NCBI RefSeq assembly: GCF_006228325.1
Contig: NZ_CP040231.1
Location: forward strand, 1,375,001-1,439,000
Length of the DNA stretch: 64,000 bases
Direction of reading: 5' to 3'
DNA from: Streptococcus sp. 1643
GTDB lineage: Bacteria > Bacillota > Bacilli > Lactobacillales > Streptococcaceae
Within the stretch, counting starts at the first letter, position 1; each line of letters opens with the position of its first letter. Shown here piece after piece: positions 3,921 to 46,778 of the stretch. A model generated the notes under the pieces. The model saw only the letters and a program-made list of their open reading frames with translations. It was not told the DNA's origin and did no database searches. A program made the position numbers and the translations under genes.

Positions 3921-4496
3921 ATGAAATCATACTTTAAAGTATCACTAGCCCTTGTGGCTTCACTTGTTCTCCTGCTCGGATGTTCCAAACAAGCATCAAC
4001 ACCTACCAACAGCAGTAGCAAAGAAGACACAACAACTCAGTCAAGTGAGAGCAAACAAAGCAGTCAACAATCATCTGAAAAGAAAGAAACAACTAAAACA
4101 CATACTTTTGTAAACAAAAATAATTCTGGAATCACTTCTACCTTGGTTTATACTGTAGAAGGCGACAATGTTATCAAGCAATCAGCTAATAACATTGCTG
4201 ATCCTGAAATCCTTGGTGCAACTCCAGAAGATGTCAAGAGTTTTATCGAAGAAAAGTACAAAGGTTATAATGGACTCAAAGGTGTTAAACAAACGATTGA
4301 AATCAAAGATGGAAAAGTTGTTCAAGATCTAGAAGTTGATTTCTCAGTTGCAAGCATTAGCGAACTTAGAAAAGCACTTCCTGAAGAATATTCTGGTATC
4401 GGTAATCGTGTGAGTTTCTCAAACTCTAAAAAAGCACTGGAAAAATGGGATTCACAGAAAAGACGAACTAATCTCCTAAAATTTCATATAGACTAG
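3921..4496 (+). CDS. DUF1307/YehR-type lipoprotein, copy 1, with a 3' frameshift
   Basis: This 191-residue lipoprotein has a signal ending LLLGC (cysteine at residue 21), a Ser/Thr/Gln-rich linker, and a domain like the YehR/DUF1307 lipoproteins. It is a tandem paralogue of the gene at 4790. The two match until the last dozen residues. Here the frame reads KKALEKWDSQKRRTNLLKF, but shifting by one base at the A-run 4441-4445 restores KMGFTEKTN and a stop at 4469-4471, matching the copy-2 ending LGYTEKTN. One A appears lost from a run of six. The product is probably still exported with an altered, longer tail, unless the change is a sequencing error. Function unknown. Confidence 0.85.
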   Translation: MKSYFKVSLALVASLVLLLGCSKQASTPTNSSSKEDTTTQSSESKQSSQQSSEKKETTKTHTFVNKNNSGITSTLVYTVEGDNVIKQSANNIADPEILGATPEDVKSFIEEKYKGYNGLKGVKQTIEIKDGKVVQDLEVDFSVASISELRKALPEEYSGIGNRVSFSNSKKALEKWDSQKRRTNLLKFHID

Positions 4497-4503
4497 TGTA
4501 GGT

Positions 4504-4542
4504 CCACCCCAAAAGTTAGACACAACTCTAACTCTTGGGGTA
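4504..4542 (+). terminator. Palindromic hairpin after copy 1, resembling an insertion-sequence end
   Basis: Arms ACCCCAAAAGTTAG and CTAACTCTTGGGGT form a 14-base-pair stem with one wobble or mismatch, followed by ATTTTATT, so it can act as a terminator. A closely similar 39-40-base sequence, in the same orientation, lies after murN (13024-13063). The CCCCAAAAGTTAGACAC part looks like the terminal repeat of IS3-family elements as I remember it. No transposase is present. From 4543 to 4752 I see only a possible 20-codon minus-strand remnant near 4545-4610 and no gene. Confidence 0.6.
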
Positions 4543-4752
4543 TTTTATTACATCCCTAACCGATGAGTCCAATAGATTCCTCCCAATCCCATAAAAAGTG
4601 CATTTAAAACTTCACACCCTTATAAAGCCATATGATAAAAGATTTTTGAAACAGATAGAGACAAAACTTTAACCGTCAGACTAGTTTCTATTCGTTGTCA
4701 TGTCAGGTCAGATGAGAGGGGAGGTCTAGTTGATTTTGAAGTAGAATCATGT

Positions 4753-4758
4753 TATAAT
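4753..4758 (+). promoter_or_regulatory. Promoter of the second DUF1307-type lipoprotein
   Basis: Extended -10 TGTTATAAT followed by a leader nearly identical to that of copy 1 (ACTTTGATTATGAAAGG). No strong -35 is seen. Confidence 0.7.
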
Positions 4759-4789
4759 ACAAAATACTTTGATTATGAAAGGAAAAGAC

Positions 4790-5329
4790 ATGAACAAATA
4801 TTTTAAAATGACTCTTTGTATAGCTCTACCATTAGCTATCTTATTGGGATGTTCAAAAAAATCAACAACCTCATCAACTAGCTCAGCAAAAAGTGAAACT
4901 ACTCAGGTAGAATCTACTAGCCAGCAAGCTACAGAAAACAAATCTGAAGTAAAAACTGTGACCTTTGTAAATGATACTCGTACTGGCTTTAATTCTACTT
5001 TAACCTACACTGTAGATGGAGACAAAGTATTGAAACAATCAGGTCATAATGTCTATGATCCAGAGGCTCTTGATACTACTGCTGAAACTCTTAAAGCATT
5101 TGTTGAAAAAACTTATAAAGGATATCAAGGCCTCAAAGGTGTTACTCATAGCATCAAAATCAAAGATGGAAAGGTCGTTCAAGATGCTGAAGTCGACTTC
5201 ACAGTCGCAAGTATTGACGAACTTAGAAAAGCCTTACCAGAAGAATACTCAGGCGTAGGTAACTATGTTAGCTTTACTGCTTCTAAGAAAATGTTAAAAG
5301 ATCTTGGATATACTGAAAAAACTAACTAA
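4790..5329 (+). CDS. DUF1307/YehR-type lipoprotein, copy 2
   Basis: This 179-residue lipoprotein has signal MNKYFKMTLCIALPLAILLGC with the lipidated cysteine at residue 21, a polar linker, and the same C-terminal domain as copy 1: KGYQGLKGV, then IKIKDGKVVQD, then DELRKALPEEYSGVG. The chosen ATG at 4790 sits behind GAAAGGAAAAG; an in-frame ATG at 4769 would place seven residues before the signal and overlap the ribosome binding site, so it is rejected. The family is known as predicted cell-surface lipoproteins without assigned activity. Its promoter and leader duplicate those of copy 1, pointing to a whole-unit tandem duplication. Confidence 0.9.
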   Translation: MNKYFKMTLCIALPLAILLGCSKKSTTSSTSSAKSETTQVESTSQQATENKSEVKTVTFVNDTRTGFNSTLTYTVDGDKVLKQSGHNVYDPEALDTTAETLKAFVEKTYKGYQGLKGVTHSIKIKDGKVVQDAEVDFTVASIDELRKALPEEYSGVGNYVSFTASKKMLKDLGYTEKTN

Positions 5330-35971: not shown

Positions 35972-36946
35972 TTACTCAATCATCAGATTCCTATTGGAAA
36001 ACTTGATGCGAACGGTTGTTCCTATCCCAACCTCAGACTCGATGCGAATCTGGTGGCCGAGTTCTTCAGAAATTTTCTTAGATAGGTAGAGGCCCAGTCC
36101 AGATGATTGCTGGGTTAGACGACCATTGTAGCCTGAAAAGCCACGTTCAAAGACTCGGAGAACATCGCTGTTTTTAATCCCGATTCCCGTATCTTTGATA
36201 CAGAGCTCCTGACCTTCCATATAAATCTCTAACCCACCATCTTTGGTGTATTTAAGGCTATTTGAAAGGATTTGTTCAATGACGACCAACAACCACTTCC
36301 TATCAGTCACGATAATTTTGTCAAGGTCATGGAGATTGAGCGTCAGTCCTTTTTGGATAAAGAAAAGGGCATACTTACGAACCACTTCCTTCACCAGATC
36401 CTCCACTTGAACCTTTTCAAATACTAAGTCATCGTGGAAGCTTTCCAAACGAAGATACTGCAACACCAGATTGGTATAGGAGTCAATCTTGAAGATTTCC
36501 TGTTCCAGTTGCTGCTTGACCTCCCGATCAGAGACTTCTGCCACTAAAAGTCGACTAGCCACAATGGGGGTCTTGATCTGATGAACCCACAAGGTGTAGT
36601 AATCCAGCAAATCCGTCAGCTTGCTCTGAGCCTCAGACTTCTTTTGATACAATTCAGATTCACGCTCTTCGAGCTTTTCTGCTAGCGCACATTCTAGAGG
36701 AGACTTGGGGTCTCGCTCAGCATAGAGTACTTCCTGCCGGTAAACCTGAGCTTCTGCAAAAATATCCCAAGCCAAAAATAAGAAGGTCAAAAAACTACTG
36801 AGCAGAAAGAAATAAAGAAAATAAGTTCCTAGACTAGCAAATAAAAACTGAAAGAGAAGGACGAGAAAGCCTAATGAAAAAATATAGGTAAAAACGCGAC
36901 TGCGAGAACGCAGATAGGCTAGACAAAATGATTTCCAATCAAGCAT
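35972..36946 (-). CDS. Sensor histidine kinase, BceS-like (intramembrane-sensing)
   Basis: This 324-residue kinase has two N-terminal membrane segments (within about residues 15-65) with almost no external loop, a helical linker, a DHp domain with HQIKTPIVASR (phospho-His, about 137), and an HATPase domain with EQILSNSLKYT, IKDTGIGIK and SSGLGLYLSKK. The form is like the BceS/cell-envelope-stress kinases and, by remembered order next to thrS, pneumococcal TCS01. It overlaps the response-regulator gene by eight bases. No ABC transporter, which BceS kinases normally use as sensor, lies beside it. Confidence 0.9.
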   Translation of the reverse strand: MLDWKSFCLAYLRSRSRVFTYIFSLGFLVLLFQFLFASLGTYFLYFFLLSSFLTFLFLAWDIFAEAQVYRQEVLYAERDPKSPLECALAEKLEERESELYQKKSEAQSKLTDLLDYYTLWVHQIKTPIVASRLLVAEVSDREVKQQLEQEIFKIDSYTNLVLQYLRLESFHDDLVFEKVQVEDLVKEVVRKYALFFIQKGLTLNLHDLDKIIVTDRKWLLVVIEQILSNSLKYTKDGGLEIYMEGQELCIKDTGIGIKNSDVLRVFERGFSGYNGRLTQQSSGLGLYLSKKISEELGHQIRIESEVGIGTTVRIKFSNRNLMIE

Positions 36947-37616
36947 GTTTCAGTCCGTATCCTATCCCTTTCTTGGTTTCGATAAAGCCTGCTAAACCTT
37001 GCTCCTCCAACTTTTTGCGCAGGCGAGCAACATTGACAGACAAGGTATTGTCATCGATGAAAAAGTCGCTATTCCAGAGTTCCCGCATCAAGTCATCACG
37101 CGCCACGATATTGCCAGCATGTTCAAACAAGACCCGCAAAATTTGAAATTCATTCTTGGTCAAACTCAGAACTTTCCCCTGATAGTGCAGGTCCATAGAC
37201 TTTGTATTGAGGATCACACCCGCATACTCCAGCAGACTTTCATCCCGCCCAAATTCATAGGAACGGCGCAACAAGCCCTGAACCTTGGCAAGGAGCACCT
37301 GCTGGTCAAAAGGCTTGGTCACAAAGTCATCTGCCCCCATATTGATTGCCATGACGATATCCATCGCTTGATCTCTCGAAGACAGAAACATGATAGGTAC
37401 CTTGGAAATTTTACGAATCTCCTGGCACCAGTGATAACCATTAAAGAGTGGCAAACCAATATCCATGAGGACCAAATGAGATTCTGACTGAACAAAAAGG
37501 CTCAATACTTCCATAAAATCTTCTGCCAAAACGACCTCAAACCCCCACTCAGAGAGCAGTTTCCCCACTTGTTGTCGAATAACTTGGTCATCTTCTACTA
37601 GTAAAATCTTGTGCAT
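36939..37616 (-). CDS. OmpR-family response regulator (BceR-like)
   Basis: This 225-residue regulator has a receiver domain with the phospho-acceptor in LVLMDIGLPLFNGYHW (Asp about 52), acidic residues near the N-terminus (LLVEDDQ), Lys in TKPFDQQ, and a C-terminal winged helix with SVNVARLRKKLEE. It starts the operon and overlaps the kinase gene. Targets are probably elsewhere, as no transporter gene adjoins. Confidence 0.93.
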   Translation of the reverse strand: MHKILLVEDDQVIRQQVGKLLSEWGFEVVLAEDFMEVLSLFVQSESHLVLMDIGLPLFNGYHWCQEIRKISKVPIMFLSSRDQAMDIVMAINMGADDFVTKPFDQQVLLAKVQGLLRRSYEFGRDESLLEYAGVILNTKSMDLHYQGKVLSLTKNEFQILRVLFEHAGNIVARDDLMRELWNSDFFIDDNTLSVNVARLRKKLEEQGLAGFIETKKGIGYGLKHA

Positions 37617-37860
37617 GCGCTCCTCCTTTGCTATTTTTCAAAGTATCAAAACCCTTCATATCAGATTTACGGATCAGTATCTCAGACTGTTTAGCAGCTA
37701 TTTCCCAAATTCAGATCAGAAAACAGATGCTAAATAGAGAACATTCCCACTGATATCATACCTTATTTTTAATTATAGTTCCAGCCTTATCCTATATTTT
37801 CCTTTTTGTGCTCATTTAGTTAGCGTTTCTTTAACTTATTTAATAGATCTAGCCTTCTTA

Positions 37861-37889
37861 TTGACAAGCAATCCATGATTTGTTAGAAT
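37861..37889 (+). promoter_or_regulatory. Promoter of the TetR-family gene
   Basis: -35 TTGACA (37861-37866), 17-base spacer, -10 TAGAAT (37884-37889) with extended TG. The operator at 37891 begins right after the -10. Confidence 0.75.
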
Positions 37890-37890
37890 A

Positions 37891-37918
37891 TGAATGAACA
37901 AATAAATTTATTCATTCA
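37891..37918 (+). promoter_or_regulatory. TetR operator 1
   Basis: Inverted repeat TGAATGAA-N12-TTCATTCA covering the transcription start of the TetR gene. The same halves and the same spacer length occur before the downstream gene (38541-38568). Binding by the encoded TetR protein is inferred from position and the shared pattern. Confidence 0.8.
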
Positions 37919-37943
37919 TGAAAACTAAGGAGGTTAAATCCTA

Positions 37944-38507
37944 TTGGACAAAAAACAATCTTTAAAAACAGCAGCCTATGAAGTTTTTTCAAAAAAAGGT
38001 TACAAGGCAACAGGTATTTCAGAAATTGCTAGGCAAGCTGGTGTTGCAGTTGGTTCTTTTTATAACTATTACGAGAGTAAAGAAGCCATTTTTCTAGACA
38101 TCTATATAGATGAAAACAACCGCGTTCGCCAAGCTATGATCGAAGAACTGGATTGGGAAATTGACATGATCGACCTCATTGGTCAACTATTTGCTCAGTC
38201 CAGAACTCTCGTTTCTTCCAATAAAATCCTTGCAGAATGGTACAATCCTGCCATCGCAGATGAGTTGCACAGCTACTATTCCTCGGAAGAAGGCAAAGTC
38301 GCAAATCCTTTTCATCAGTTTCTAGTTAAAACTTTTACAAATCGCATGCAGGCTGAAGGGTACTCGCCAGAAAAGATTCAAGATATTTTACAGGTTTATA
38401 ATCTGTTTTACTATATGGATATGCATATCACGGAAAAAGATTTTCCAGATATTGGCAAAACTGTTGAAATACTTGCAACCAACTTCATAAAAGGAGTTCT
38501 AAAATAA
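37944..38507 (+). CDS. TetR/AcrR-family transcriptional regulator
   Basis: This 187-residue regulator has the TetR helix-turn-helix at residues about 8-50: AAYEVFSKKGYKATGISEI then VAVGSFYNYYESKEAIF. The C-terminal domain should bind an inducer but gives no clue to it. Translation starts at TTG (37944-37946) behind AAGGAGG with a good gap. Its own promoter carries a perfect operator, so it is likely autorepressed, and the second operator puts the next gene under the same control. Confidence 0.9.
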   Translation: MDKKQSLKTAAYEVFSKKGYKATGISEIARQAGVAVGSFYNYYESKEAIFLDIYIDENNRVRQAMIEELDWEIDMIDLIGQLFAQSRTLVSSNKILAEWYNPAIADELHSYYSSEEGKVANPFHQFLVKTFTNRMQAEGYSPEKIQDILQVYNLFYYMDMHITEKDFPDIGKTVEILATNFIKGVLK

Positions 38508-38531
38508 AGAAAATGGTTTTCTTTATTTTTT
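38506..38531 (+). terminator. Terminator after the TetR-family gene
   Basis: Arms AAAGAAAA and TTTTCTTT, loop TGG, then ATTTTTT. It separates the regulator from the next gene, which has its own operator. Confidence 0.75.
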
Positions 38532-38540
38532 GGAAACAAA

Positions 38541-38568
38541 TGAATGAATTTATTTTTTCGTTCATTCA
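38541..38568 (+). promoter_or_regulatory. TetR operator 2
   Basis: TGAATGAA-N12-TTCATTCA, same half-sites and spacing as operator 1, 27 bases before the start of the membrane-anchored reductase-like gene. Confidence 0.8.
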
Positions 38569-38594
38569 GTGATTAAAATTAGGAGTCATAAAAA

Positions 38595-39371
38595 ATGAAA
38601 AGAGGTAAAAAAATGTTTATTATCATTCTATCAACACTTGGAGCTCTATGTATTATAACTTGGGGTGCCATCGCTTATCTTGGACGAAGCCAGACATTAT
38701 CGATAAAATCCATCGAAAACCCCAGCGGAGATCTGTATTTAATTCACATCACAAAACCGAGTCATCAAAACTGGAAAGCTGGGGCTTACGCTCAGTTTAA
38801 GCTCCCCGATACGTCGTCCGCTGCTAGGAAAAACGGAGCTAAGGGAGAGCAGACCAGTCGATGGCTAACCATTGCCTCCACACATGATGAAGATGAAATC
38901 CTCATTTTAACGCATAATAGTGGTAGCCACTTTAAGGAAACCTTGACACATTTACCAGCTGGAAGTGAGATTGAGATGAGTTGGCTGGATTCCTCTTTGA
39001 CTGCTAAAGATACGAATCAGCCACTAGTTTGCTTTGCATCTGATGTCGGAATTTCTGCTCTACGCCCCCTTATCAAAGAATGGGCTGGTAAATGTCCGAT
39101 TATTCTCAACCATTTTGACAAAGGAGTTACTATTTTCGATAATGAGATGAAAGAACTGACTCAAAAAACACCGAATTTTACTTATAAAACGAGCGATGAA
39201 CTTTCTCAAAGTCAAGAATTTTTAAAACGTGCTATTGATGAATACGGCAATCAAGCCAGCTATCTCATCACAGGTCAGCCTGATGATGTAAATGAGATGA
39301 AGAATTTTTTAAAGGAAAATGGGATTGATAGTAAAAACATACAAATAAGCTCGTTTAGAGGTTTGAAATAG
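38595..39371 (+). CDS. Membrane-anchored ferredoxin-NADP reductase-like protein
   Basis: This 258-residue protein has one N-terminal membrane segment (about residues 7-28), then a ferredoxin-reductase-type module. An FAD-site-like SRWLTIAS (about 94-101, compare RxYSxxS), a GSHFKETLTHLPAGSEI segment (compare GxxSxxLxxLxxGDxV), FASDVGISALRPLI (NAD-site region but lacking the usual GGxG) and YLITGQPDDVNEMKNFLKE then GI (compare YxCGPxxM) are in the right order. A redox role at the membrane is inferred; the altered glycine motif leaves NAD(P)H use uncertain. Regulated by the adjoining TetR through operator 2. Confidence 0.75.
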   Translation: MKRGKKMFIIILSTLGALCIITWGAIAYLGRSQTLSIKSIENPSGDLYLIHITKPSHQNWKAGAYAQFKLPDTSSAARKNGAKGEQTSRWLTIASTHDEDEILILTHNSGSHFKETLTHLPAGSEIEMSWLDSSLTAKDTNQPLVCFASDVGISALRPLIKEWAGKCPIILNHFDKGVTIFDNEMKELTQKTPNFTYKTSDELSQSQEFLKRAIDEYGNQASYLITGQPDDVNEMKNFLKENGIDSKNIQISSFRGLK

Positions 39372-39482
39372 GAGCAATCTATCTTCTATGTATTTCAATC
39401 AAACCCTACTAGGTCATTCAAACAAGCCCACTAGCTAATTCTAGGTAAATGTGATAGGATAAACATAGAGAAAGGAGCTTTT

Positions 39483-40559
39483 ATGGCCAATATTTTTGAC
39501 TACCTGAATGATGTAGCATACGATTCCTTTTATGACCTCCCCGTAAATGAGTTAGATGTTCTTGCCTTGACTGAGTTGACCTATCTTGCTTTTGATGATA
39601 TAGTTACCCAAGAACCACAGCGTCTCATTGACTTAGCAACTCAGATCCCTAGAGAAACGACGATGTTGACCAATAAAAACCGTCTCCAGTTGTTGGATCA
39701 GCTCACTCAACACAAACGCTTTAAAAATTGCAAGCTCTCAGACTTTATCAACGACATCGATCCTGAATTGCAAAAACAGTTCGCAGCTATGGCTTATCGT
39801 ATCAGTCTCGATACCTATTTGCTTGTTTTTCGTGGAACGGATGACAGTATCATTGGTTGGAAAGAAGATTTCCATATGACCTATATGAAGGAAATACCTG
39901 CTCAAAAACATGCCCTCCAGTATTTAGAGGACTTTTTTGCTCAACATCCTAACCAAAAGGTGATTCTAGCAGGACATTCAAAAGGGGGCAATCTAGCAGT
40001 CTATGCTGCTAGTCAACTTGATCCAAACTTACAGAAAAACATTGTAGCTGTCTATACTTTTGATTCCCCTGGGCTTCACAAGGAACTAACCGAAACACCT
40101 GGCTATCAAAACATGATGGAAAGAACGAAAGTATTTATTCCACAAGGGTCTATCATCGGGATGATGCTGGAAATTCCGGATAAAAAAATCGTCGTTCGAA
40201 GCACCGCCTTAGGTGGCCTTGCTCAGCACGACACCTTTAGTTGGCAGGTTGAAGACAATCACTTTGTCCAACTAGACGAGACCAATAGTGACAGCCAGCA
40301 AGTCGATACTACCTTCAAGGAATGGGTTGAGACGGTCCCTGATACTGAACTGCAACTCTACTTTGACCTCTTTTTTGGAATTATTCTTGATGCAGGCATC
40401 TCCTCTATCAACGATCTTTCTTCCTTCAAGGTCATTGAACACATTCACCATCTCTTTGTCCAAGCTCAATCCCTCACTCCCGAAGAAAGAGAAACCATGG
40501 GACGACTAACCCAACTCTTGATCGACACCCGCTACCAAGCTTGGAAAAATCGAGAATAG
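39483..40559 (+). CDS. DUF2974 (Mbeg1-like) alpha/beta-hydrolase
   Basis: This 358-residue protein has the lipase-like nucleophile elbow ILAGHSKGGNLAVYAA (Ser about residue 164) and the N-terminal pattern FRGTDDSIIGWKEDF typical of DUF2974 proteins. Activity on a lipid or ester is inferred; the substrate is not known. No signal peptide is seen. The ATG at 39483 follows GAAAGGAGCTTTT. It is monocistronic and ends at the terminator shared with the adhesin gene. Confidence 0.85.
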   Translation: MANIFDYLNDVAYDSFYDLPVNELDVLALTELTYLAFDDIVTQEPQRLIDLATQIPRETTMLTNKNRLQLLDQLTQHKRFKNCKLSDFINDIDPELQKQFAAMAYRISLDTYLLVFRGTDDSIIGWKEDFHMTYMKEIPAQKHALQYLEDFFAQHPNQKVILAGHSKGGNLAVYAASQLDPNLQKNIVAVYTFDSPGLHKELTETPGYQNMMERTKVFIPQGSIIGMMLEIPDKKIVVRSTALGGLAQHDTFSWQVEDNHFVQLDETNSDSQQVDTTFKEWVETVPDTELQLYFDLFFGIILDAGISSINDLSSFKVIEHIHHLFVQAQSLTPEERETMGRLTQLLIDTRYQAWKNRE

Positions 40560-40641: not shown

Positions 40642-43600
40642 TTAGTCTTCTTTTTTCTTGCGAGACACAAGTCCAAATCCGCTCATCAAACCAAGTACTC
40701 CTAGAGCTGCCAAAGCTGCATGATCTTCCGTACCAGTATTAGGTAATTCTTTGGTTGCTTTAGTAGTTGGAGATTGCTCAGTCGGTTTTTGTTGAGGGGC
40801 AGTAACAACTTTTTCGTAGACATGTTCTGTGTCGCCGTTTGGAAGTTTCTTAGTCTCTACGAAGCGGTAACCTGGAATATCTTTCTTAGGTTGTTCACCG
40901 TCTTCGCTTGGATGTCCTGGAATGTCATTGCCTTCCTTATCCTTATGACTAGTCTTAACCTTCTCATAAACGTGTTCTGTGTCGCCGTTTGGAAGTTTCT
41001 TAGTCTCTACGAAGCGGTAGCCTGGAATATCTTTCTTAGGTTGTTCACCGTCTTCGCTTGGATAACCTGGAATGTCATTGCCTTCCTTATCCTTGTGACT
41101 GGTCTTCACTTTTTCGTAGACATGTTCTGTGTCGCCGTTTGGAAGTTTCTTAGTCTCTACGAAGCGGTAGCCTGGAATATCTTTCTTAGGTTGTTCACCG
41201 TCTTCGGTTGGGTGGCCTGGAATTTCATTGCCTTCCTTATCCTTATGACTAGTCTTAACCTTCTCATAAACGTGTTCTGTGTCGCCGTTTGGAAGTTTCT
41301 TAGTCTCTACGAAGCGGTAGCCTGGAATATCTTTCTTAGGTTGTTCACCGTCTTCGCTTGGATGTCCTGGAATGTCATTGCCTTCCTTATCCTTATGACT
41401 GGTCTTCACCTTCTCATAAACGTGTTCTGTGTCACCGTTTGGAAGTTTCTTGGTCTCTATGAAGCGGTAGCCTGGAATATCCTTCTTAGGTTGTTCACCC
41501 TCTTCGGTTGGATGACCTGGAATGTCATTCCCTTCCTTATCCTTATGACTAGTCTTCACCTTCTCATAAACGTGTTCTGTGTCGCCGTTTGGAAGTTTCT
41601 TAGTCTCTACGAAGCGGTAGCCTGGAATATCTTTCTTAGGTTGTTCACCGTCTTCGGTTGGGTGGCCTGGAATGTCATTGCCTTCCTTATCCTTGTGACT
41701 GGTCTTCACCTTCTCATAAACGTGTTCTGTGTCACCGTTTGGAAGTTTCTTGGTCTCTATGAAGCGGTAGCCTGGAATATCCTTCTTAGGTTGTTCACCC
41801 TCTTCGGTTGGATGACCTGGAATGTCATTCCCTTCCTTATCCTTATGACTAGTCTTCACCTTCTCATAAACGTGTTCTGTGTCACCGTTTGGAAGTTTCT
41901 TGGTCTCTATGAAGCGGTAGCCTGGAATATCCTTCTTAGGTTGTTCACCCTCTTCGGTTGGATGACCTGGAATGTCATTCCCTTCCTTATCCTTATGACT
42001 AGTCTTAACCTTCTCATAAACGTGTTCTGTGTCGCCGTTTGGAAGTTTCTTAGTCTCTACGAAGCGGTAGCCTGGAATATCTTTCTTAGGCTGTTCACCG
42101 TCTTCGGTTGGATGTCCTGGAATTTCGTTCCCTTCCTTATCCTTATGACTAGTCTTCACCTTCTCATAAACATGTTCTGTGTCGCCGTTTGGAAGTTTCT
42201 TAGTCTCTACGAAGCGGTAACCTGGAATATCTTTCTTAGGTTGTTCACCGTCTTCGGTTGGAATTAATGTATTCCCCTCAGTATCTACAAATGAAGTAAT
42301 TGGACGTACAGTTGGTGTGTATTTTGCAGTTATTTCTGTTCCGTTCTTATCAACTCGTTTGACTGTAACTCCTGAAGCCTTCCCAACAAAGTCTTTTTCT
42401 GGTGTGAAAGTTACCACACCATTTTCATCAATGGTATAAGTTCCTTCTCCCGGAACAACTTTCTTAGTTGTGCCATCATCAAAGGTTGGTTTAACATTTT
42501 CATCAATTTCAACAGTCTTCTCTACACCGTTTACTTCAACTTTACCACCAGTAAAAGTTGGTGTACCGTTTTGTGTTTGTCCTTTAGGTCCTTCAGACTC
42601 ATCATCTGTAGAAGTTGGTTTAACAGGTATTACAGTTGGAGTATACATTGCTGTAGCAGTTGCTGTAATATCCGTATCATTAGCATCTTTTCCTAATTTT
42701 GCAGTAAGTGAAACTGTGACAGGTATAGCTGTACCGGTAAATGTCTTCAATGGAACAAAAGTTACTTCACCTGTTTCATTATTAATTGAGTAGGTACCCT
42801 GACCATCAATTGTTAGAGTATCAACAAATCCACCTGTTTTTGGATCTACTAACTTAGCAGGCGAAGAAGCACTTGGTTTTACTGGTGATCCATCTCCAAC
42901 AGATGTAAAGATTGGAGTTTCTTTTTGAGTAGCACCTTGAATATCAGTCGAAGTCACATTATGTCCTTCAATCGTATCAGTTACTGTAATATGGTAGGTT
43001 GTTGTAGCAGTTGATGAGCCAGCCCCATGATCCACACCAGATTCAGTTCCACCTATTGTAGCATCTGTTGTGTAATTGCCATTACTATCAATAACGTCAA
43101 CTGTTACTGTATAGACTCCCACTTCACTCAGTGTATAACCACTAGCAAGATTATAGTTGTTTGCATCTTGTTTAGTGTCATAAACCTTCTGAACTCCTGA
43201 AGGAGATGTTACTGTAATACGAGTAATGTAAGTTGTTTTTCCGTACTTAGTATCTTCTGCATCAGAGATTGTCACTGCAGCTTTTGCTTCATTACGGAGA
43301 TCTACCGCAGTTCCTTTAGTAGAAGTATAATCTTGTGAAGTTGCTGTTGGTTTTGTATTTACTACAGTTGCCACATCAGTATTTGTTGCAATCGTCCCTC
43401 TAATAATACCACCAAACCCTGACTTAGTATGAACTTCCCAAGAGTCATTTTCAAGCTTAGTAGCAGTCACTTCAGTTCCATCAGATGACGCCCAGGTATT
43501 TGAATGTTTATCGTAAGTGACAGTTACTGACATTCCATCTCCTACCTGATTAGTATTCTTAGAAACATAAATCGTTTCTGGACGAGTTGGCGTTTCTACA

Positions 43601-46164
43601 CTTGTCACTTTCCCAGTGCTATCAAGCTGTCGAATGTACTCATAGATATAAAATTTCATACCACCGTCTTGCTGAGCTTCTGTGTACACTTGACGTTTAG
43701 TCCATCTTGTCGTACCATCACCATTCAGTGTTTTACTTTCAGCATAGTCGCCAGGTAACTCCCAGTGTCCGGTAGCCTTATTAAAAGTAGCAGTATGTTT
43801 TTGCCCATCCGTTCCATTTAACTCAACTTGTTCACGTAAGAAAGTTCCCTTAACATTTTCAGCAGATGCTTCTACTTTGATATTATCAACACCAACTTTG
43901 GCAGTTGCCTCTGATGTCACAGGAATATTAAAGACTGTATCGGAATCTACAATACCTAATTCTTGATTTTCAGAAACAGCTGTGTTGGTTGAAGCACTGT
44001 CTACGAGCCATTTGCCATTAACTGCTTTTAGATTGGTTACAGTACCATCAGGCATTGTTACCTTAGCACTTGATGCACCTTTAGAAATTTTTACTGGTAC
44101 AACTGTTGAGTAAGTTTCAACGTTTTGAACCTCAACCTTTGGTTTCACGACTAATGTTACAGTAGCATGTGCTTCTTGTCCAGATTGGTTCCAGACATTA
44201 TTATTAGCCAATTTATCATAATCTTTTGCAAATACGGAGACTGTGTAAATTCCTGCTTCAGTTAATTTTCCAGAAATGATTCCTCTCCCCATATTCGTTT
44301 GATCAGCAGCTTGCTCATCAGAAGTACTGTTTGCAACACTATAGCTAGTACCTGGAATTAGGACTTTAGAATCATCTAATTGTTCACCAATGGTGTTATA
44401 TCCTGAAACTCCTGTCACTGCTCTAGAAAATCTTTGAGGCACTCTTACAACTTTTCCTTCAACCGTCGTGTAGTTATAAGTTCCTCGACTATTTGCTGGT
44501 GTTGCACTAGCACCTGATTCGTCATAGAATTGAATGTTTACATTAGCATCATCACCTACTTTACGATCATAACGCTCAGAGTCTGACTTTATTTTAGGAG
44601 GTGTGCTATCTTGCCACCCGACCCAACCAGCACGAAGATTCTGAATTTGGAAAGTTACTGTTCGACCATCTGTATTGGTCGCAGTAATATTAAATCGTAA
44701 ATCATAAACTCCATTTTCAATATCCGCTATAACTTTTCCTTGAATTGTGTCTGTTTCTGAATCGTATGTCAATCCCGGCACAAGGTTAGTTGGGGTTACA
44801 GAGGTAAGACTCCAACCAGCTTGCTTAGCATTTTCAGAAACAGCGATACGATCTTTCAAACCTTTAATATAAACTCTGTCAACTCCGTGTTCATACCCAT
44901 AGCCATAAATTTCTGTAGCTAGGTATTCATAACCACCGTTAGCAGAGTATATTGACGTCGCAGCGTTTGAAATTCTTGACCCATCCGCACGGAGTTTATT
45001 TCTCCAAAGTGGTGCTTCTTCAGCTAACTTTTTAGCGGCATCAGGGGTTAATGGATAGTCTACACGTCCTTTGTTGTTATGACCAGTTTTTCCGCCTTGT
45101 TCTGTATGCATCCCATTTCCAGCATTGGTATCTTCACCAGTCCGTTGATTAGAATAGACTTCAATCTCTAGCCCTGTAGCATCAGTACCCGTAATTAATT
45201 TAATTTCTTGTACCGGAATTGTATAGGTATCTTTACCAGTATGATTTGAAGCGTTTGTTTCTGATGCATGAGTTGTGTTAGAACCCTCTTCGGCATAGAA
45301 ATCTTGAGCAGCCAAAGCGACTCCAAAGTTTCCATCTTTTCCGATTCCTGCTTTTTTTAGTTCATTATATACTGCAAGAATTGACTCGTTCAAACGTGAC
45401 AATTGTTCATTGCCTTGTCTAGCTGTAACGCTATCCGTAACTAACACTTTTTTAGCTTCCGCAATAACTTCATTATTATTAGCTATCGCTGCCTCAATTG
45501 CCGCTTTGTTTTCAGCCTCAAGCTTATTTTTCCGGACTGCTTCATCTGCAAGAACATTTGTCACTTCCGCTTCTGACGTGACCTGTTCCAAAACCTTTTT
45601 AGATTCTTCTACAGCTTTTTCTGTAGCAGTGGTCGCCACTGGTTTGACTGCTGTAGTTGCTGCTGTTTCCTCAACTTGTTTCCCAGCTTCGTCTGACTCA
45701 ACTACAACTGTAATCAAAGCTTCAACTTTAGCATGCTCTGCATCGATATCAGCCTGTTTTGCAGTTTCGTTTGCAAGAACTGCCTTTGCCGCAGTCAATA
45801 CTTCATTTGCAGTAGCTATCGCTGTTGCATCAGCTTTCTTTGCAGATGCAATCTTCGCTTCTAACTCAACTACTTTTTTAGTCAGAGCAGTCTTATCAAC
45901 TTTTTTAGTCTCTACTACTTTTTCTGACACCTTAGCTTCAGATTTCTCCGCCGTTATAGTTGACTCCGAATCCTTTGTTGCTACTGGTGTTGTCGTTGCC
46001 ACTGTTGCATCTGCACCTTGTACTTCCGCTGCCGATACCGCACCATTACCTAGGAACATCATCAAACCGGCCGCAATTGCCACCGACGCTGCCCCAAAGC
46101 TGTACTTCCGAATGCCATAACGAATGTACTTCTCCGTTCTAAAATCCTGTTGCTTACTCTTCAT
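40642..46164 (-). CDS. Giant LPXTG-anchored surface protein (YSIRK signal, CshA-type and 50-residue repeats)
   Basis: This 1840-residue wall protein has a YSIRK-like signal (GIRKYSFGAASVAIAAGLM) cut after about residue 46, a charged Ala/Lys/Glu-rich helical region to about 300, a globular presumed adhesive region (about 300-550), Ig-like and CshA-type repeat modules (about 1085-1300, with GEGTYTIDENGVVTFTPE), and about ten 50-residue repeats (about 1300-1790; DIPGYRFVETKKLPNGDTEH core). It ends LPNTG, a hydrophobic segment and RKKKED. Sortase A should join it to peptidoglycan. The ATG at 46164 follows GGGAGG; GTG three codons earlier is too close. It is probably an adhesin; the ligand is unknown. 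Confidence 0.92.
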   Translation of the reverse strand: MKSKQQDFRTEKYIRYGIRKYSFGAASVAIAAGLMMFLGNGAVSAAEVQGADATVATTTPVATKDSESTITAEKSEAKVSEKVVETKKVDKTALTKKVVELEAKIASAKKADATAIATANEVLTAAKAVLANETAKQADIDAEHAKVEALITVVVESDEAGKQVEETAATTAVKPVATTATEKAVEESKKVLEQVTSEAEVTNVLADEAVRKNKLEAENKAAIEAAIANNNEVIAEAKKVLVTDSVTARQGNEQLSRLNESILAVYNELKKAGIGKDGNFGVALAAQDFYAEEGSNTTHASETNASNHTGKDTYTIPVQEIKLITGTDATGLEIEVYSNQRTGEDTNAGNGMHTEQGGKTGHNNKGRVDYPLTPDAAKKLAEEAPLWRNKLRADGSRISNAATSIYSANGGYEYLATEIYGYGYEHGVDRVYIKGLKDRIAVSENAKQAGWSLTSVTPTNLVPGLTYDSETDTIQGKVIADIENGVYDLRFNITATNTDGRTVTFQIQNLRAGWVGWQDSTPPKIKSDSERYDRKVGDDANVNIQFYDESGASATPANSRGTYNYTTVEGKVVRVPQRFSRAVTGVSGYNTIGEQLDDSKVLIPGTSYSVANSTSDEQAADQTNMGRGIISGKLTEAGIYTVSVFAKDYDKLANNNVWNQSGQEAHATVTLVVKPKVEVQNVETYSTVVPVKISKGASSAKVTMPDGTVTNLKAVNGKWLVDSASTNTAVSENQELGIVDSDTVFNIPVTSEATAKVGVDNIKVEASAENVKGTFLREQVELNGTDGQKHTATFNKATGHWELPGDYAESKTLNGDGTTRWTKRQVYTEAQQDGGMKFYIYEYIRQLDSTGKVTSVETPTRPETIYVSKNTNQVGDGMSVTVTYDKHSNTWASSDGTEVTATKLENDSWEVHTKSGFGGIIRGTIATNTDVATVVNTKPTATSQDYTSTKGTAVDLRNEAKAAVTISDAEDTKYGKTTYITRITVTSPSGVQKVYDTKQDANNYNLASGYTLSEVGVYTVTVDVIDSNGNYTTDATIGGTESGVDHGAGSSTATTTYHITVTDTIEGHNVTSTDIQGATQKETPIFTSVGDGSPVKPSASSPAKLVDPKTGGFVDTLTIDGQGTYSINNETGEVTFVPLKTFTGTAIPVTVSLTAKLGKDANDTDITATATAMYTPTVIPVKPTSTDDESEGPKGQTQNGTPTFTGGKVEVNGVEKTVEIDENVKPTFDDGTTKKVVPGEGTYTIDENGVVTFTPEKDFVGKASGVTVKRVDKNGTEITAKYTPTVRPITSFVDTEGNTLIPTEDGEQPKKDIPGYRFVETKKLPNGDTEHVYEKVKTSHKDKEGNEIPGHPTEDGEQPKKDIPGYRFVETKKLPNGDTEHVYEKVKTSHKDKEGNDIPGHPTEEGEQPKKDIPGYRFIETKKLPNGDTEHVYEKVKTSHKDKEGNDIPGHPTEEGEQPKKDIPGYRFIETKKLPNGDTEHVYEKVKTSHKDKEGNDIPGHPTEDGEQPKKDIPGYRFVETKKLPNGDTEHVYEKVKTSHKDKEGNDIPGHPTEEGEQPKKDIPGYRFIETKKLPNGDTEHVYEKVKTSHKDKEGNDIPGHPSEDGEQPKKDIPGYRFVETKKLPNGDTEHVYEKVKTSHKDKEGNEIPGHPTEDGEQPKKDIPGYRFVETKKLPNGDTEHVYEKVKTSHKDKEGNDIPGYPSEDGEQPKKDIPGYRFVETKKLPNGDTEHVYEKVKTSHKDKEGNDIPGHPSEDGEQPKKDIPGYRFVETKKLPNGDTEHVYEKVVTAPQQKPTEQSPTTKATKELPNTGTEDHAALAALGVLGLMSGFGLVSRKKKED
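40800..42264 (-). repeat. Tandem 150-bp (50-residue) repeats inside the adhesin gene
   Basis: About 9.75 copies of a 150-base unit encoding PTEDGEQPKKDIPGYRF followed by V/I, then ETKKLPNGDTEHVYEKV and KTSHKDKEGNDIPGH. Two variants are interspersed: a V type and an I type (the I type also has PTEEGEQ), with the same linked base differences each time. This near-identity suggests recent expansion or gene conversion. Copy number is likely to vary between strains. Confidence 0.95.
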
Positions 46165-46778
46165 AAGATACACAACCTCCCTATTTTTATTATGTTGATA
46201 TTGAAATATAGAAAAACAAAATTTCTTTCTCTCCTTAAAAAGGCTTTTAAATTTTGATATTTCAAAAGGATTATATCCTCATATTCAATATGCATATTCA
46301 TACTAACATTTTTTTATATCTTTTTCAATAACTTTTTAAATTTTATTCAAAAAAATAATAATATTCAAATTATTTGATTCATAAAACTCTATTCAAATCC
46401 TTTATTTACAGCATGTAAACCGTATCTTTTTTACTATATGAAAATTAATAAAATACTTCTTAATGTATCAAACTATTGTATTTATATTTGGATACACTTC
46501 GCAAATATTATTTTTTAACATATTTTATTTATAATTATAACTATAAAATCTAAGTGCATTCTCAATAAAAGAAACTGTATTTTTATCAGTTATTTCTTAT
46601 TTATTCTATGTTCTTATTACCATTCAACTAAAAATATAACAAGTCTTCTCACAGCAATTTCCTTCTTTTTTAATATAAATCAACCAACCTTGAATACAAA
46701 AGTGGGACTTTCTTTTCACTTTATTTCTCTCTTCTATGCTATACTTAGTTTAGTACATTCTTTGAGATTGGAGCCAGT
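46165..46778. other. AT-rich 614-base gap between adhesin and MBL-fold gene
   Basis: No gene is seen. On the minus strand a TATAAT at 46270-46275 could start the adhesin message with a leader of about 100 bases. On the plus strand TGCTATACT near 46737-46745 is a plausible extended -10 for the MBL-fold gene. An ATATGCATAT palindrome lies near 46290. Confidence 0.45.

Follow-up and report, generated by a model that had tools for sequence, protein, structure and literature searches.

A putative TetR-controlled membrane flavoprotein module in Streptococcus sp. 1643 and its relatives

The tetR and flavoprotein genes at positions 37861–39371 of the window, i.e. the 64,000-nucleotide stretch of the Streptococcus sp. 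1643 genome (1,898,954 bases) that was analysed here, probably constitute a module for membrane electron transfer that is inducible, regulates itself and belongs to one TetR subfamily, a reading which we hold with moderate confidence. The TetR protein would bind two operators, O1 and O2 (Table 1), and block transcription of tetR as well as of the flavoprotein gene, until a small, probably lipophilic or redox-active compound frees the operators. The flavoprotein would then carry electrons between a donor in the membrane and the inducing compound or a partner protein; instead of NAD(P)H, this donor may be a quinol or a second flavoprotein. Membrane electron transfer is proposed as the output because flavin or heme proteins have repeatedly been chosen as partners.

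Table 1. Features of the tetR–flavoprotein locus in the window
Feature	Position	Strand	Measure or basis
tetR promoter: TTGACA 37861–37866, N17, TAGAAT 37884–37889	37861..37889	+	11/12 consensus matches
Operator O1, TGAATGAA-N12-TTCATTCA, over the expected tetR transcription start	37891..37918	.	kept in 56/61 distinct loci
Likely tetR ribosome binding site, AAGGAGG	37927..37933	+	
tetR, 187 aa, TTG start	37944..38507	+	TetR_N 57.4 bits
Possible terminator: A+T-rich hairpin plus T run, tetR 3′ end	38501..38529	+	-7.8 kcal/mol
Operator O2, upstream of the flavoprotein gene	38541..38568	.	exact downstream operator in 57/61 distinct loci
Likely ribosome binding site of the flavoprotein gene, AGGAG	38581..38585	+	
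Membrane-anchored flavoprotein, ferredoxin-reductase fold, 258 aa	38595..39371	+	model and motif counts
Flavoprotein codons 3–30, single membrane helix	38601..38684	+	model
Flavoprotein codons 89–95, FAD motif R-W-L-T-I-A-S	38859..38879	+	family alignment
Flavoprotein codons 147–158, altered NAD(P)H loop F-A-S-D-V-G-I-S-A-L-R-P	39033..39068	+	family alignment

The two palindromes had been noticed in a preliminary description of this DNA, and their coordinates, half-sites and N12 spacers all proved exact. None of 100 shuffles reproduced the TGAATGAA-N12-TTCATTCA pair, and O1 and O2 are the sole matches in the 1,898,954 bases of the genome with spacers of N10–N12 permitted (the reversed control pattern gave 0); together with conservation across loci, this rules out a chance origin. 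Of 88 TetR loci fetched, 61 distinct ones were left after removal of identical copies and of loci with short upstream sequence. These 61 include many close S. oralis/mitis relatives, which are hence not independent; tetR is preceded by an exact operator in 56 of them (54 with N12, 2 with N11) and closely followed by one in 57 (28 with N12, 27 with N11 and 2 with N10; the first operator after tetR is inexact in the other 4). The half-sites are exact because the search pattern demands it, and it is therefore these two proportions that give a fair measure of conservation. The 'same spacing' remarked upon earlier holds for the two window operators but is no general rule among the 61 distinct loci. 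At L040 and L059, an O2 with N10 accompanies an O1 with N12, which raises the question of how one dimer or dimer pair would bind both.

O1 starts 1 nt past the −10 box and ends 25 nt short of the TTG codon; it therefore covers the expected transcription start, and the earlier wording 'over the regulator's start site' is correct in this sense but not for the start codon. The best promoter match stops 1 base before O1 in 56 of 56 loci (TTGACA in 55, TTGACT in 1). Since a promoter consensus scan found 6 matches against 6.4 expected from shuffling, the tetR promoter is accepted because it is conserved among relatives and not on the scan result. A sigma-70 promoter scan at O2 gave no good match, which counts against the preferred reading. 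The possible terminator hairpin of tetR is also present in those relatives whose sequence was inspected, and was not flagged by a G+C-based scan; no Rfam element reached its gathering threshold in 37000–40000. Among 76 different 28-base operator versions, every spacer position is variable, with T or C only at position 9 and A or G only at position 20. By this pattern of conservation the operators are under selection, half-sites and promoter register being kept while the spacers drift. O1 was not found at L045 and L046, and one mismatch each occurs in O1 of L053, O2 of L051 (N12) and O2 of L045 (N11); L061 and L062 have two N11 sites each, with one mismatch per site. The operator design is seen again in a sister group (TetR 50–53% identical) and at about 29–39% identity. 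In the accessible part of PMC9430170, the half-site is present inside primers only.

The regulator scores well above the Pfam cut-off of 24 bits for TetR_N. Sixteen aligned TetRs of this kind all share N-x-IL-x-EW, and their recognition helix has the sequence VGxFYxYY, except that one has TG in place of VG. SMU_1361c and SMU_1360c of S. mutans we take to be a TetR and its neighbour. These two genes were looked up in the accessible parts of PMC8112672, PMC12348008, PMC5361627 and PMC6763767.

The structure model of the flavoprotein (pLDDT 89) consists of one N-terminal helix and a two-domain ferredoxin-reductase (FAD/NAD) fold; modelling thus yields the fold that had been anticipated for a single-span membrane protein with a reductase-type module. 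At E 1 the window protein matches zero Pfam families; the Lactococcus copy scores 14.2 bits for FAD_binding_8, below the Pfam cut-off of 22, and the source annotations among the matches listed are 'ferredoxin reductase' or hypothetical. The FAD motif R-x-x-[ST]-x-A-S is present, with R89 in 23 of 24 family rows and A94 and S95 in all 24. A standard NAD(P)H loop, with its G-x-G and T-P, is absent: position 150 is D in 23/24 family rows as against G in 23/23 outgroup rows, and A155 is found in 23/24. The earlier statement that the NAD motif lacks the usual glycines needs qualification, in that one glycine has become Asp150 and the following Thr-Pro is lost, but Gly152 is retained. With an altered nucleotide loop beside an intact FAD motif, use of NAD(P)H is doubtful; from this one loop we infer an electron donor other than NAD(P)H, and the flavoprotein, as far as its sequence can tell, has probably changed its donor.

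Alternatively, the protein may be an ordinary cytosol-facing anchored NAD(P)H oxidoreductase (a quinone, nitro-compound, ferric or flavodoxin reductase) under a substrate-sensing TetR, with the altered loop still binding NAD(P)H. It shares its fold with NAD(P)H reductases, both domains being modelled; Gly152, Y223 and G227 are conserved in 24/24 family rows, and relatives at about 28% identity have a normal NAD(P)H loop. The near-invariant Asp150, the loss of Thr-Pro and the charges flanking the helix, which point to an outward domain in 19 of the 23 helix-bearing rows, nevertheless make this explanation unlikely, though it deserves to be taken seriously. A second flavoprotein homologue, at L094 (2295–2987, in G069), has no helix, is 47% identical and shares the altered loop, which counts against the preferred reading. 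Neither a TetR of the window type nor an operator was found there in the 6 kb read; an NrdI gene (4380–4841; NCBIfam NrdI 239 bits, above the cut-off of 190) lies about 1.4 kb apart. This helix-less homologue, and the NrdI-like partners described below, which are without an obvious export signal, argue against reading the altered loop simply as the sign of an outward domain.

Across 147 Streptococcus genomes the flavoprotein gave 33 matches (one with an internal stop) in 32 genomes, and a window-type tetR adjoins it in 32 of 32, the 33rd match being the L094 copy; the gene pair is thus found together in other streptococci. The window protein is 90–94% identical to the S. oralis copies, and on this ground the strain is placed in the S. 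oralis/mitis group. TetR itself was found at E 1e-30 in 48 of the 147 genomes, at 63–99% identity in 33 and at 50–53% in 15. The one genome among the 33 without the flavoprotein, G126, has kept tetR and the small membrane protein described next, and counts against the preferred reading. Outside Streptococcus, the tetR/flavoprotein pair was found on a plasmid of Lactococcus piscium and in two further genera. In distant streptococci, on the L. piscium plasmid and at L060, from another family, a membrane protein of 107–115 aa is encoded between O2 and the flavoprotein gene. It has matches in 28 of the 147 genomes, 27 of them with a window-type TetR (2 copies broken), the 28th being a weak match inside a long frame; it is broken in L052/L053 and absent from the S. 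oralis/mitis-type loci and S. merionis. Its model (15 alignment rows, pLDDT 88) has four helices. Foldseek gave zero matches to the PDB at E 0.001 and, this result being weak and the protein helical, there is no evidence of a new fold; kinship of the streptococcal protein with DUF4064 proteins occupying the same place was unsupported (hhalign probability 0.9%). Where present, it would probably be the membrane partner of the flavoprotein, missing in the S. oralis/mitis form. Judged by gene order in relatives, the window pair is a reduced version of an operon with three genes (tetR, four-helix membrane protein, flavoprotein). Of the 'compact inducible redox unit' of the preliminary description, tetR, the two matching operators and the anchored protein with a flavin-reductase fold stand, but as the remainder of a larger operon.

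The broken or absent small membrane protein, like the altered nucleotide loop, might be expected if the flavoprotein were a pseudoenzyme that kept the FAD fold as a sensor or scaffold but had no redox turnover. This is quite improbable, considering that 32 of the 33 flavoprotein matches are free of internal stops and that the same operators recur with other redox proteins.

Around the pair, an Mbeg1-like hydrolase gene (window 39483–40559, Pfam 300.5 bits) comes next after the flavoprotein gene; a similar gene at L107 adjoins a two-component system, with the TetR pair absent between them. Further downstream, the opposite strand (40642–46173) encodes a surface protein of 1843 aa that contains many near-identical repeats and has LPNTG as its C-terminal anchor. 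A phage origin of the pair was rejected, since a search of a phage collection gave no match.

In the 15 genomes with a TetR at 50–53% identity the flavoprotein search gave no match. The order there is tetR, small membrane protein and NrdI-like flavodoxin in 15/15, with two or three exact N12 operators; the regulator and the small protein therefore look like the core, with the flavoprotein partner exchanged. The sister NrdI-like proteins belong to Pfam Flavodoxin_NdrI (34.6–39.4 bits, cut-off 27, in the four of four scored) and fail to reach the nrdI cut-off of NCBIfam, 74.65 bits (39.7 and 42.7 bits, in the two of two scored). The NrdI-like family is present in 16/147 genomes, namely the 15 with sister operons and G062, which has a paralogue only. 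A second NrdI-like paralogue, 58–60% identical, occurs at L107 (3464–3844, in G046) and also at L108 and L109; at L107 it comes directly after a two-component system and ahead of an ABC transporter, the operator being absent there. By eye, the two-component system of L107 resembles the pair at 35972–37616 of the window.

The sister operons raise the possibility of a module in the service of class Ib ribonucleotide reductase, in which the flavoprotein would reduce or replace an NrdI-type flavodoxin. An NrdI-like protein holds the place of the flavoprotein in all 15, and the helix-less homologue at L094 is a near neighbour of an NrdI gene. According to the accessible part of PMC10294844, the flavodoxin reductase FNR2 of Bacillus cereus is an NrdI reductase, and flavodoxin reductases in class Ib assembly are noted in the part of PMC8463856 that could be consulted. 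We consider such a role very improbable: the sister proteins score under the NCBIfam nrdI cut-off, L094 is a single case, and the genes at related sites, for cytochrome b5, ApbE and FMN-binding proteins, suit a wider redox role.

These related sites bring us back to the inducible membrane module, which is not isolated because its TetR subfamily and operator recur beside flavin and heme genes of other Bacillota. When 398 Bacillota genomes were searched for the TetR, one match came up beyond the window's own (G648, 36%). Operator-only scans matched 6 of 299 Bacillota genomes (the window's own included; reversed-pattern control, 1/299), 13 of 148 genomes in the family of G523 (G523 included; control, 1/148) and, among four genomes of its class, G648 again. 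Seventeen genomes besides the window's were thereby found, 13 of them with a TetR of the same subfamily at the site. In G153, G1010 and G1032 the site is without such a TetR, which counts against the preferred reading; these operators look like chance. Pfam-supported flavin or heme genes lie at the operator or beside its tetR in nine of the 17: FMN_bind in G523, G701, G918, G933, G965 and G967, FMN_red in G523, G687, G965 and G1009, Flavodoxin_5 in G701 and G1009, ApbE in G967 and cytochrome b5 in G648. In G523, G701 and G967 an exact operator is located 5′ of tetR and the redox gene follows tetR directly; in G965 the operators are at the FMN_red and FMN_bind genes, and tetR is absent from the 7 kb read. 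G975 has a short, flavodoxin-like ORF. The sites in G922, G1013, G1029 and G1037 (4 of 17) contain a four-helix DUF4064-type gene or fragment, with Pfam support in the two scored, and no redox gene was seen there, which again counts against the preferred reading. At L142 and L144 (G1013 and G1037), tetR and the DUF4064-type gene or fragment are followed by a two-component system. In nine Bacillota loci inspected by eye, the −10 box stops 1 base before the exact upstream operator. Operators without tetR in the stretch fetched are found at FMN_red genes (L147, 1753–1778; L140, 2833–2858 and 3692–3717; L138, 2839–2864 and 3698–3723), as if a single TetR had distant targets.

The switch and its partner may also have moved. 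Genes of the sigma-70 region 4 and HTH_16 families, presumably of Tn916 type, lie close to the module at L046. At least two relatives of the flavoprotein, P0065 (longest contig 831 kb) and P0115, come from sources labelled Candidatus Saccharibacteria, a label that rests on the source names of these two proteins among the best 120 of 504 matches. In a 57-row tree both fall inside a 14-row set (100/100) within the Lactobacillales family; the set joins the window protein at 86/95, under the strict mark, and long branches are flagged elsewhere in the tree. A viral-contig scan for the Saccharibacteria context gave zero relatives. Plasmid carriage and a very likely spread to Saccharibacteria suggest a benefit in shared niches. 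It is tempting to speculate that one Bacillota TetR subfamily and its near-invariant TGAATGAA-N10..12-TTCATTCA operator run interchangeable inducible membrane electron-transfer modules, that the streptococcal partner faces outward, has abandoned NAD(P)H and is fed from the membrane, and that switch and partner have moved among streptococci, other lactic acid bacteria and episymbiotic Saccharibacteria. We put forward this wider scheme tentatively, as possible but rather doubtful.

Streptococci are without a full respiratory chain and, to our knowledge, their membrane flavin electron transfer has been little described. Among the matches listed from openly licensed PMC papers, none describes the module. 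A regulator–operator combination by which such modules can be recognised across Bacillota would be a search key for redox partners, and makes the question of the inducer directly testable. If true, a reductase fold without the usual nucleotide loop, in the place of NrdI-like proteins or cytochrome b5, would widen the known roles of this fold.

Comparison with known systems sets the pair apart from each of them. The flavoprotein differs from members of the ferredoxin-NADP reductase superfamily, including the FAD domain of NqrF and GcoB, in its altered loop, at 13–19% identity, and in being a 258-aa protein without an iron-sulfur domain. From SpNOX, the pneumococcal NADPH oxidase (dehydrogenase domain 8qq5), it differs in having just one membrane helix and therefore no multi-helix heme domain. 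A further comparison is with NrdI and with the extracytoplasmic flavin systems of ApbE/FMN_bind. In relatives, NrdI-like, FMN_bind and ApbE proteins are encoded at or next to operators of this class, whereas the window flavoprotein is in none of these families. On the side of the regulator, Bacillus FadR is the top-scoring NCBIfam model for the window TetR, but with 43.1 bits against a cut-off of 200 membership is rejected. The half-site TGAATGA/TCATTCA is presumably like the FadR box, while the window spacing is presumably about one helix turn longer than in that box, and fatty-acid genes are absent from the window locus. TetR and QacR are self-regulated repressors with a local target, and the window regulator resembles them in its TetR_N domain and in having operators both on its own promoter and before its target; unlike theirs, however, the window locus is without an efflux pump, and its target is a membrane flavin-type protein.
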